The notes below the pieces were generated by a model that worked only from the letters and a program-made list of their open reading frames with translations, made no database searches and had not been told where the DNA came from. From a virus: DNA of 29,603 nt. A program made the position numbers and the translations under genes. The DNA lies in IMG/VR virus record IMGVR_UViG_3300007542_002845, positions 1 to 29,603 of that record. One strand, written 5' to 3'. The stretch's first letter is position 1. Every line of letters starts with the position of its first letter. Positions 8,456-29,094 of the stretch are shown here, piece by piece.

Positions 8456-8484
8456 TTGACTTTTACCGAAAACTAGAGTACAAT
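8456..8484 (+). promoter_or_regulatory. Sigma70-like promoter for the HAD gene
   Basis: TTGACT (8456-8461) preceded by GGGGC, a 17-nt spacer ending in GAG, and TACAAT (8479-8484). Only 6 nt separate the -10 box from ATG 8491, so the transcript should begin at or next to the start codon. Confidence 0.82.
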
Positions 8485-8490
8485 ACTCGT

Positions 8491-9108
8491 ATGTTAAAGT
8501 TTAATGAGTTCCTCTCTGAGCAAACGAAGTCCGGTGCTGGGTTGACCATCTGGGACATAGACGAAACCTTGTTCAACACAAAGGCATTGGTTTACGTTGT
8601 CAAAGATGGCAAGGTGATCAAGAAACTCAGCAACCAACAGTTTAACACCTACAAACTCAAGTCCGGTGAATCCTATGACTTCACCGAATTTAGAGACGCG
8701 AAACATTTTCGCGATACCTCTGAACCTATCGTGCGTGCAATTAATAAAGCCAAAGCGATCCACAAAAATATTAAGAACCGTCCTGGTAGTAAAATGATTA
8801 TCATTACTGCTAGGTCGGATTTTGACAATAGGGATATCTTCCTAGACACCTTCCGTAAGCAGGGTATCGAGATTGACGATATCCACGTTCATCGCGCTGG
8901 TAATATAAATGCTGCGAACTCTGCAGAAGGTAAAAAAATCTTCATAAAAAAATACCTCGATACGGGAAAATTCAGTCGAGTGCGTCTCTTTGATGATGCT
9001 GTTTCGAATCTGAATATGCTGTTGTCTCTTAAGAATGAATATCCGGATGTGGATTTCCAGGCATTTCTGGCACACCATGACGGAAGTATGACTACGTATA
9101 AAAAATAG
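8491..9108 (+). CDS. HAD-superfamily hydrolase with capsid-targeting N-terminus
   Basis: The product has 205 residues. The HAD motif I is DIDET (22-26); TAR in MIIITARSDFD is motif II and LFDDAVSNL fits motif IV, so the phosphatase catalytic set seems present. Substrate is unknown; polynucleotide or small phosphate esters are possible. The first ten residues MLKFNEFLSE resemble the T4 capsid-targeting peptide MKTYQEFIAE, with the (L/I)xE cleavage site of prohead protease gp21 in exactly the same place. No ribosome-binding site precedes the ATG and the promoter implies a leaderless or nearly leaderless early mRNA. It ends at TAG 9106-9108, next to the following promoter. Confidence 0.85.
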   Translation: MLKFNEFLSEQTKSGAGLTIWDIDETLFNTKALVYVVKDGKVIKKLSNQQFNTYKLKSGESYDFTEFRDAKHFRDTSEPIVRAINKAKAIHKNIKNRPGSKMIIITARSDFDNRDIFLDTFRKQGIEIDDIHVHRAGNINAANSAEGKKIFIKKYLDTGKFSRVRLFDDAVSNLNMLLSLKNEYPDVDFQAFLAHHDGSMTTYKK

Positions 9109-9111
9109 GGC

Positions 9112-9140
9112 TTGACTTTTTCGCATTTTCGCGGTATATT
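9112..9140 (+). promoter_or_regulatory. Sigma70-like promoter for the secreted repeat protein
   Basis: TTGACT (9112-9117) within TAGGGCTTGACTTTTT, a 17-nt spacer ending CGCGG, and TATATT (9135-9140). The predicted start is near 9147. Confidence 0.82.
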
Positions 9141-9166
9141 TAATTATGTTGAAAAGGAGAAATGGA

Positions 9167-9556
9167 ATGTTTAAGTCGATTGTTTTGGGTCTGAGTGCGA
9201 TTTCGCTGTTGGCAACTCCGGTAGTTGCAGAAGCAAATGATCGCCGAGGCGACCACTTCGAACGTTCTCATCGAGATCGCGACCAGCGTCGTGGTGGTTT
9301 GAGCACGGGTGGTGCGATTGCATTGGGTCTTGGTGCTTTTGCTCTTGGTGCTGTCATCGCCAATGATCGAAATCTAGATTTTGATCCTCGCTTCGATCCT
9401 CGCTTCGATCCTCGTTTTGATCGTCGTTTTGATCGTCGTTTTGATCGTCGTTTTGACCCTCGTTTCAATCGTGGCAGTGACTGCTATTCGACTGTCGTTA
9501 CGGAATATGACCGCTGGGGCAATCGTTTCCTGCGTAGGGAAGTTCGTTGCTACTAA
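9167..9556 (+). CDS. Secreted small repeat protein, unknown function
   Basis: The product has 129 residues. ATG 9167 is chosen because AAAGGAG lies at 9153-9159; the in-frame ATG 9146 sits at the predicted transcription start. A signal peptide is clear: MFKSIVLGLSAISLLATPVVA with cleavage after VVA or AEA. Then come an Arg/Asp-rich region, a glycine-zipper-like hydrophobic segment (GGAIALGLGAFALGAVIA), eight tandem tetrapeptides of FDPR/FDRR type, and a C-terminal domain with two Cys (DCYSTVV...REVRCY). The architecture resembles envelope proteins of rhizobia and relatives rather than known phage families. Periplasmic or outer-membrane action on the host envelope is inferred; the hydrophobic segment could insert in a membrane. 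Confidence 0.8.
   Translation: MFKSIVLGLSAISLLATPVVAEANDRRGDHFERSHRDRDQRRGGLSTGGAIALGLGAFALGAVIANDRNLDFDPRFDPRFDPRFDRRFDRRFDRRFDPRFNRGSDCYSTVVTEYDRWGNRFLRREVRCY
9380..9475 (+). repeat. Eight tandem 12-bp repeats coding FDPR/FDRR units
   Basis: Units of 12 bp of form TTYGATCSTCGY start at 9380, 9392, 9404, 9416, 9428, 9440, 9452 and 9464, coding FDPR three times, FDRR three times, FDPR, then the degenerate FNRG. Near-identity of the DNA units points to recent slippage-type expansion. Confidence 0.95.
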
Positions 9557-27343: not shown

Positions 27344-28483
27344 ATGCTTAAATTTAAGTCTTTTATCTCAGAAGAAAAAAAACCCGCTGCTGGCATTGCT
27401 CACATTGAGCATCCCTCTGATCGCTCGTTCGATGGTCCGGACGCAGCGAATCATGCACTTACTACTCTCCGTGGTGTTTCTGCTGGTAAGACTCCCATCA
27501 CCCGCAAGATTGATGACAAGATGTCATTTCATGCCATTCGCAATCCCGATGGTTCGGTTGGTGTAAAATATAAAGGTTCGGGATCGCATTACAATTTTTC
27601 CGAAAAAGACATTGATACGCAGCACGGTCACAAACCTTATCTCGCTGGTCCCCTCAAAGCACTGCTAAATCACATCGGCAAGGTTCTCCCGAAACAACCA
27701 GGAGAATACCAAGGTGGATACATGAGCGAACCGCATACCAGAGCGATGAAGTCTGGTCAGGTTTCTCATACTCCGAACACGATCGAGTATCGCACTCCTT
27801 CTACCTCTTCCGAGGGTTAGAAACTTCGTCAGTCCAAGGTGAGTGCTGTAATTCACACTCGTCTGGTTGGTCCGCACAAGCAGGCACAACCGATCACCTC
27901 TATGGATGGTTTTGAAGAACATCCTGACTTCCATCAGGTTTCGCATGTAGTCAGCGATGAACATCGTGCGATTCATCCCGAACATAAAACCGAAGCAGAC
28001 AAGCACCTCGATGCTGCTGACTATTTGATGCAGGATCATTCCTATCATCACCTCGATGGTCACGATACGCACCTTCGCACTTATATCAACCGCACTGTTT
28101 CCAGCGGCGAATCCCCCAGCGTAAAGGGTTACAAGAAGCACCTCTATGATGCTCTTCACAAGAAAGTAGAGTCAGTTAAAACCGACGCAGCAAAGCAGCG
28201 TCATGCTGAGACTCGTGATGCATCGGTTAAGCATGTGGATGCCAACAAGGCAGCATTCGAACGTTCGCTTAAAATTCACAATCACCTTCAGCAAGCAACC
28301 AATATCCTTGCTCGTTCTCTGGACAAGCATGGTGCTGGTGGTTTCAGCACTCACATCAACGATGAAGAAGCAGGTGGCGAAGGTTACGTTGCGAACGGTA
28401 TAAAGATCGTGGATCGCGAAGGGTTCTCTAAGGCGAATCGCGCTCGTAGTGAAATCCTTCGTGCAAACAGAGGTAAGAAATGA
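27344..28483 (+). pseudogene. Capsid-targeted phage protein interrupted by an in-frame TAG
   Basis: From ATG 27344 the frame runs 158 codons to TAG 27818-27820, then continues in the same frame for 220 codons to TGA 28481-28483, giving about 379 residues if read through. The break, SSEG-stop-KLRQSKV, lies within a segment that reads as one continuous protein, so a Lys codon AAG to TAG change is likely. The N-terminus MLKFKSFISE matches the T4 capsid-targeting peptide with a gp21 site (ISE). The body is rich in His, Lys and Asp. I recall long proteins of this kind (DUF6267-like) in T4-type marine phages, usually before a nucleotidyltransferase gene as here. GTG 27839 could start the second part but has no ribosome site. 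ATG 27338 is an alternative first start. Confidence 0.75.
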
Positions 28484-29094
28484 CTGAAGTCCACCATCAT
28501 ATTACGCAGGGTCGAATGAATCCTCCGCATGCTGGTCACGAGATGGTCGTAAACAGCGTTATGCGTGGTGCCGAACAGCATGGTGGTGGTCATACGATCA
28601 TCCTTACTGGTTCGCATGATCCCAAGAAAAATCCTCTGAGTCCTGAGCAGAAACTGAAGCATGCTCGTCGCGCATTTCCAGGTGCGAACATTAAGGTTTC
28701 CGACAATGAAGCACCTACGCTTCTACACCATGCTGCACAGTTACATGCGCAGGGAGTAACGCACCTTCATCTTCATGTTGGTTCGGATCGCGCATCAGAA
28801 TTTCATGCACTTCTCAAGAAATATAATGGCGTCGAAGGTCGCCACGGTATGTTTAACTTCAAGCACATTAAGATCCATGAAGTCGGTGGTGAGCGCAAAG
28901 AAGGTAGTGCTGGTATCGAAGGTGCGTCGGCATCAAAGATGCGTGCGCATGCCACTGCTAAGAGTCAAAAAGATTTTCATGGAATGGCACCTAGTGCTAT
29001 GTCTAAAAAACACAGAGAAGAACTATATCGTGATGTTCGCAAAGGTATGCAGTTGGAAGAATCATTTTCTCTGAAAGATTTTCTAGGGGGATAA
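28480..29094 (+). CDS. Nucleotidyltransferase (cytidylyltransferase/NadM-like fold)
   Basis: The product has 204 residues. ATG 28480 overlaps the preceding stop in ATGA. The N-terminal GRMNPPHAGHEMVV contains the HxGH motif (17-20) and GASASKMRAHA corresponds to the ISxSxxR motif of the nucleotidyltransferase superfamily, so nucleotidyl transfer using ATP or CTP is expected. The middle is unusually His-rich. The C-terminus ends LEESFSLKDFLGG. Relatives in cyanophages are annotated as cytidylyltransferases and lie next to the same partner gene. Substrate is unknown; NMN or a phospho-alcohol are options. Confidence 0.82.
   Translation: MTEVHHHITQGRMNPPHAGHEMVVNSVMRGAEQHGGGHTIILTGSHDPKKNPLSPEQKLKHARRAFPGANIKVSDNEAPTLLHHAAQLHAQGVTHLHLHVGSDRASEFHALLKKYNGVEGRHGMFNFKHIKIHEVGGERKEGSAGIEGASASKMRAHATAKSQKDFHGMAPSAMSKKHREELYRDVRKGMQLEESFSLKDFLGG

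Follow-up and report, generated by a model that had tools for sequence, protein, structure and literature searches.

The internal proteins of bacteriophage T4 (IPI, IPII and IPIII) are small and basic, without recognised enzyme activity, and carry one N-terminal tag on unrelated, often clustered, bodies in a phage that also encodes gp21, gp22 and gp23. In the T4 record IPII and IPIII start MKTYQEFIAE and IPI starts MKTFKEFTST, a ten-residue peptide with aromatic residues at 4 and 7 and, in IPII and IPIII, L/I at 8 and Glu at 10. T4 Alt, an ADP-ribosyltransferase that is packaged and injected, provides the precedent for a packaged enzyme released by the prohead protease gp21, although it begins with another propeptide (MELITELFDE). 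Mutagenesis of the IPIII capsid targeting sequence (CTS) assigned targeting mainly to residues 4 and 7 and processing to residues 8 and 10, and a peptide with Asp at position 10 was targeted yet left uncut (PMC9026906). That CTSs serve T4-like phages in general for loading diverse proteins has been proposed before (PMC9026906). The uncharacterised 54-aa T4 protein gp61.1 (L095, 18966-19130) starts MKTFKEFIKED, a full CTS match, and may be a fourth member of this group of T4 internal proteins.

Virions of related T4-like cyanophages also contain enzymes, among them NMNAT/cytidylyltransferases, APH-like kinases and SAM hydrolases (S-CREM2, S-SCSM1, S-SZBM1, S-CRM01), and these share the same N-terminal motif. 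The authors of the proteomes noted that such enzymes may be lysate carry-over and left the choice between cargo and lysis residue undecided (including PMC10665884). Their papers did not connect the presence of the enzymes to the CTS, and our search of the literature found no paper linking the T4 CTS to cyanophage virion enzymes.

Here we report that the N-terminal decapeptide of a phosphatase of the haloacid dehalogenase-type (HAD) superfamily, encoded by an uncultured marine T4-like phage, very probably acts as a capsid targeting sequence of the T4 type; we put at roughly 0.8 the probability that, as its sequence suggests, it makes the enzyme an internal head protein. The DNA analysed (the window) is a single assembled fragment of 29.6 kb (IMG/VR record IMGVR_UViG_3300007542_002845, positions 1-29,603). 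Its genes, named partly from profile and homology searches and partly from our own reading of the ORFs, run from the end of gp23 through UvsW, gp55, gp47/46, a peptide deformylase, a ClpP-like protease, the HAD gene and a peptidase/MoxR pair to gp45, gp44, gp62, RegA, Hsp20, gp43, UvsX, gp41, a glycosyltransferase, DUF6267 and a cytidylyltransferase (Table 1). The polymerase is about 50% identical to cyanophage polymerases, and the only head gene on the fragment is the end of gp23.

Table 1. Features of the window discussed in the text.
Feature	Position	Strand	Basis or remark
Putative sigma70-like promoter, TTGACT-N17-TACAAT	8456..8490	+	Ends 6 nt before the HAD ATG; leaderless arrangement
Gene for a HAD-superfamily phosphatase of 205 aa (residues 11-205 in the predicted mature form)	8491..9108	+	PHROG polynucleotide kinase family, E=3e-8
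CTS-like decapeptide MLKFNEFLSE of the HAD protein	8491..8520	+	Direct translation; match to T4 IPII/IPIII
Predicted gp21-type cleavage junction LSE/Q, after Glu10	8518..8523	+	Prediction from the (L/I)xE specificity; relatives have LxE at the expected end of the gp23 propeptide
DUF6267 gene	27344..28483	+	N part matches positions 2-144 of Pfam DUF6267, C part positions 158-371
Second targeting-type decapeptide, MLKFKSFISE, at the DUF6267 start	27344..27373	+	
Cytidylyltransferase/NMNAT-like gene, downstream of DUF6267	28480..29094	+	PHROG 3041, E=1e-46

The ATG of the HAD gene is the first start codon past the upstream stop, and the translation from it starts MLKFNEFLSEQTKSGAGLTIWDIDETLF; the N-terminal sequence of the 205-residue protein is MLKFNEFLSEQTKSGAGLTIWDIDET. 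The initial annotation had aligned this start to the T4 internal-protein peptide, and the alignment stands against the T4 record: without gaps, F4 faces Y4, F7 faces F7, L8 faces I8 and E10 faces E10, and E6 also coincides. Both targeting residues (F4 and F7) are thus present, as is a processing site of the gp21 type, (L/I)xE, ending at residue 10 (L8-S9-E10), where cleavage is predicted. In an AlphaFold model built on an alignment of 15 homologues, residues 1-10 have a pLDDT of 54 and the remainder 78-95 (mean over the protein 88), with residues 4-8 modelled as a short helix. Low model confidence next to a confidently folded HAD domain is consistent with a removable tag.

The HAD motifs are intact, as the initial annotation had noted with DIDET at residues 22-26: all four (DxDxT, T/S, K, DD) are present, and D22, D24, T26, T106, K148, D168 and D169 are invariant in the family. 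Its fold, assigned with AlphaFold and Foldseek/VIA, is nearest among solved structures to the 3'-phosphatase of T4 Pnkp (VIA-align Z 13.1, rmsd 2.7, 134 aligned residues), which ties with the class B acid phosphatase AphA (Z 13.0). The protein shares the HAD Asp motifs with both but only about 11% sequence identity, and it lacks the kinase domain of Pnkp and the signal peptide of AphA. Profile searches returned PHROG_415 (the polynucleotide kinase family, E=3e-8) and Pfam Acid_phosphat_B at 0.0022, under the family cut-off; NCBIfam gave no family, PADLOC no defence family, and a PDB sequence search only a weak match to a designed protein. In some viral proteins the HAD domain is apparently joined to a cytidyltransferase-like domain, in line with the operons that HAD and cytidylyltransferase genes share. 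Our best guess is that this phosphatase works shortly after entry, on nucleotides or on the ends of nucleic acids.

Relatives of the HAD protein are encoded at 62 IMG/VR loci, which collapse into 14 lineages at 90% identity of the mature part, 11 of them Met-started in the aligned register. F4, F/Y7, L/I8 and E10 are fixed in 11/11 of the latter; positions 2, 3, 5, 6, 9, 11 and 12 vary, as does the length of the linker between the decapeptide and the first beta strand. The motif positions are therefore the residues mapped in T4 IPIII and the only ones fixed between positions 2 and 12, which supports a capsid-targeting role. Partial motif loss in the three other lineages counts against it: L027-L029 are without E10 (L027 and L028 retain F..FI), L057/L058 start MKTFWEIRES, and in L040/L061 part of the motif is likewise gone. 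Relatives in bacterial genome assemblies fall into two groups. Two are tagged and lie on phage-like contigs (MLSFKDYMNE and MKTFIQFLEE, the latter near a DUF6267 gene starting MKSYKQFLIE), whereas the others lack the tag: some, from SAR86 and other bacteria and 46-50% identical, begin just before the first beta strand (SAR86: MDSKSKIGLTIFDIDET), and others form the C-terminal domain of a longer protein. The closest HAD relatives in bacterial genomes are C-terminal domains, of DyP-type peroxidases at L199 and L205 and of PLD-domain proteins at L203; at L199 a PLD-like gene adjoins the DyP-HAD gene. No close relative was found in cultured phages at E 1e-3, and the most distant homologue, used as query, retrieved only a 28% match in an uncultured phage.

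The putative promoter of the HAD gene lies just downstream of an ATAAATA stretch, and at most homologous loci TTGACTTTT-N17-TATACT-like boxes likewise end about 6 bases before the ATG. With boxes so close to the start codon, early transcription of the HAD gene is probable, and its transcript may be leaderless. An early-looking promoter of the sigma70 type would be unusual for a purely structural late protein and counts against packaging; it neither proves nor disproves it. The product of the adjoining gene (9146-9556) is small, contains FDPRFDPRFDRR repeats and has an N-terminus resembling a signal sequence. It has a TTGACT-N17-TATA-type promoter of its own (about 9107-9145), whose -10 box ends about 5-6 nt before the ATG as in the HAD gene, and the arrangement of the two suggests leaderless transcripts.

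The same tag recurs on unrelated proteins (DUF6267, DUF6321, cytidylyltransferase), whose genes often share an operon with the HAD gene. The HAD gene is followed by a DUF6267 gene at L027-L029, lies near a motif-bearing DUF6267 gene at L196, and at L050 precedes four small motif-starting ORFs without a recognised family. Six motif-starting genes occur at L059: a small ORF, DUF6267, HAD, DUF6321, a cytidylyltransferase and, further on, a second cytidylyltransferase-like gene. Around 80 cytidylyltransferase genes (474 kb) there are 119 motif starts, all on the strand of that gene and 117 of them near an ORF start; they form 8 sequence clusters, dominated by DUF6267 (58), DUF6321 (28) and the cytidylyltransferase itself (21). 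A truncated, tagged P-loop kinase-like gene (MLSFSEYLHEG...GGPGSGKS) directly follows the HAD gene at L031 (3611-3812) and may encode a further packaged enzyme. No gene of the cultured marine T4-like pelagiphage HTVC008M (L096, L108, L109) starts with the strict motif; this counts against the capsid-targeting reading and shows that marine T4-like phages do not all use the tag.

In the window itself the tagged DUF6267 gene is split by an in-frame TAG at 27818-27820, for which a natural nonsense mutation, an assembly error and readthrough are candidates; the homologue at L075 has a sense codon at this position. A programmed frameshift was dropped, as the two halves share one frame with a single TAG between them, and TAG recoding was dropped because the HAD gene itself terminates with TAG.

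The machinery that would read such a tag is encoded by the nearest long relative, the 150-kb contig of L021, which carries gp20, gp21, gp22 and gp23. Its gp21 is 59% identical to that of S-SZBM1 and has the same GELGHP and SSRG motifs (GELNHP and SSRG in T4). In four phages of this type, LxE (LFE or LTE) stands in gp23 where the propeptide is expected to end. The presence of gp21, gp22 and an (L/I)xE site in gp23 adds further support to the capsid-targeting interpretation.

Published virion proteomes allow the motif to be compared with known cargo. For S-CREM2, 52 of 219 proteins were found in virions (PMC10665884, Table 3). We ranked all 219 with a nine-column profile trained on metagenomic N-termini and T4, with no cyanophage included. 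The top four are all published virion proteins (p=0.0029), and three are enzymes: gp154 (cytidylyltransferase, MKNFSSFLTE), gp14 (APH-like kinase, MKRFDAFLTE, from a GTG start), gp6 (SAM hydrolase, MKDFDSFLEE) and gp136 (MQTFSMFFSE). A score of 6 was reached by 0 of the 167 proteins undetected in virions. This test rests on four proteins and was not blind, the S-CREM2 hits having been viewed before the profile was fixed, though they were absent from the training set. A rank test of virion against non-virion proteins over the whole of S-CREM2 was not significant (p 0.37), as expected given that most virion proteins are tail and shell parts; it is the high-scoring tail alone that is informative.

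Homologues of the cytidylyltransferase in the window occur in virions as S-CREM2 gp154, S-SCSM1 ORF91 and S-SZBM1_140. The virion NMNAT of S-SCSM1 starts MKSFLQFLKE, and a kinase of S-CRM01, mentioned in PMC10665884 as a virion protein, starts MISFDQFLSE. In S-SZBM1 the top-of-list result was not repeated: the two best motif scorers, the small proteins _191 and _192, are not among the 30 detected virion proteins, and the cytidylyltransferase _140 (MRFRQFIIE), a weaker scorer, is. Recurrence of the tag on unrelated proteins, several of them published virion proteins of Kyanoviridae phages, nevertheless favours a capsid-targeting role for the HAD peptide as well.

As the motif is defined by four positions only, the HAD start (F..FL.E) might resemble the T4 internal proteins by coincidence or common ancestry. 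In the window, however, where 0.03 sites were expected, the degenerate DNA pattern has two, a number that no shuffled sequence reached, and both coincide with the start codons of real genes (HAD at 8491, DUF6267 at 27344). Ten related contigs contain 28 occurrences, against 0 for the reversed pattern. When the four residue classes were rearranged over positions 2-10 in 1512 ways, the T4 arrangement was the commonest, with 89 occurrences at ORF starts of the IMG/VR loci where the median was 0, a count in which the motif is somewhat favoured because the loci were recruited through HAD and cytidylyltransferase. Presence of the motif on unrelated folds and its absence from bacterial homologues also speak against this reading. 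The window expectation and the rearrangement counts refute it in the main, and we regard it as extremely improbable.

Two further explanations accept that the motif is functional. The peptide could be a docking helix for another phage or host partner in the infected cell, for example in a complex of HAD, cytidylyltransferase and DUF6267, with no role in the capsid; that motif-bearing genes are often neighbours, that some viral proteins unite a HAD with a cytidylyltransferase domain, that residues 4-8 are modelled as a helix and that the promoter looks early would all suit such a role. Docking would not need a gp21 site, however, and the four fixed positions are those mapped in the T4 CTS, including the cleavage residues 8 and 10; with motif proteins of S-CREM2 and S-SCSM1 found in virions, we think it unlikely. 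Slightly less so, if still improbable, is that the CTS is real and the HAD protein serves mainly as a part of the scaffold core in head assembly, its activity serving the producing cell, if it is used at all. In T4, head assembly is influenced by IPIII, and the internal proteins co-purify with gp22 (PMC9026906); the HAD protein, too, is likely expressed early. Against this, no catalytic HAD residue varies within the family, and the wide differences in cargo from phage to phage suit delivered effectors better than a component of morphogenesis.

We therefore prefer packaging for delivery: the HAD protein starts with the tag that T4 uses for loading its head, which makes it probable that the particle carries the enzyme and delivers it together with the DNA. 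F4 and F7 would bind the gp22 scaffold core and the protein would be enclosed in the prohead, where gp21 would cut after Glu10 (L8-S9-E10) and free a phosphatase of 195 residues. The mature protein would stay with the packaged DNA, enter the next host alongside it and act there immediately; to judge from the nearest folds, its most likely substrate would be a nucleic-acid end or a phosphorylated nucleotide. Packaging, cleavage and injection are what we infer, the injection from the T4 internal proteins and Alt. The HAD phosphatase differs from the T4 internal proteins in being an enzyme, from Alt in being another enzyme, and in kind from the cyanophage virion enzymes, and would add a further class of cargo to a T4 mechanism that is already known. 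It had been remarked that packaged enzymes are not a standard part of T4-type annotation; the remark is reasonable, yet Alt and the virion NMNAT and kinases of cyanophages already represent the class in principle.

One tag over many enzymes of environmental T4-like phages is a wider and more interesting result than the HAD protein alone, and several puzzling enzymes of cyanophage virions seem to find their explanation in the motif. We consider it rather probable, with less assurance than for the HAD peptide, that marine and freshwater T4-like phages carry operons of injected enzymes sharing one T4-type tag, and that virion cargo can be predicted across Kyanoviridae-like phages from the tag alone, which would account for enzymes dismissed as possible contaminants. 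Such cargo would comprise the HAD phosphatase, NMNAT/cytidylyltransferase, DUF6267, DUF6321, kinases, SAM hydrolase and a Cas9-like nuclease. If so, a ten-residue motif would reveal from sequence what protein cargo a T4-like phage brings into its host, a phosphatase would join the known packaged effectors, and the question of cargo or contamination for cyanophage virion enzymes would reduce to one test, removal of the tag.

Variant forms of the motif occur in S-CREM2 as well. In the Cas9-like virion protein gp12 (L097, 7704-10313) it is displaced inward (RFASFMAEA, with F at 19), and the neighbouring virion protein gp13 (L097, 10310-10546) starts MKDLHSFLTE, with Leu at 4. Since both are found in virions, shifted or Leu4 forms of the motif may also target.
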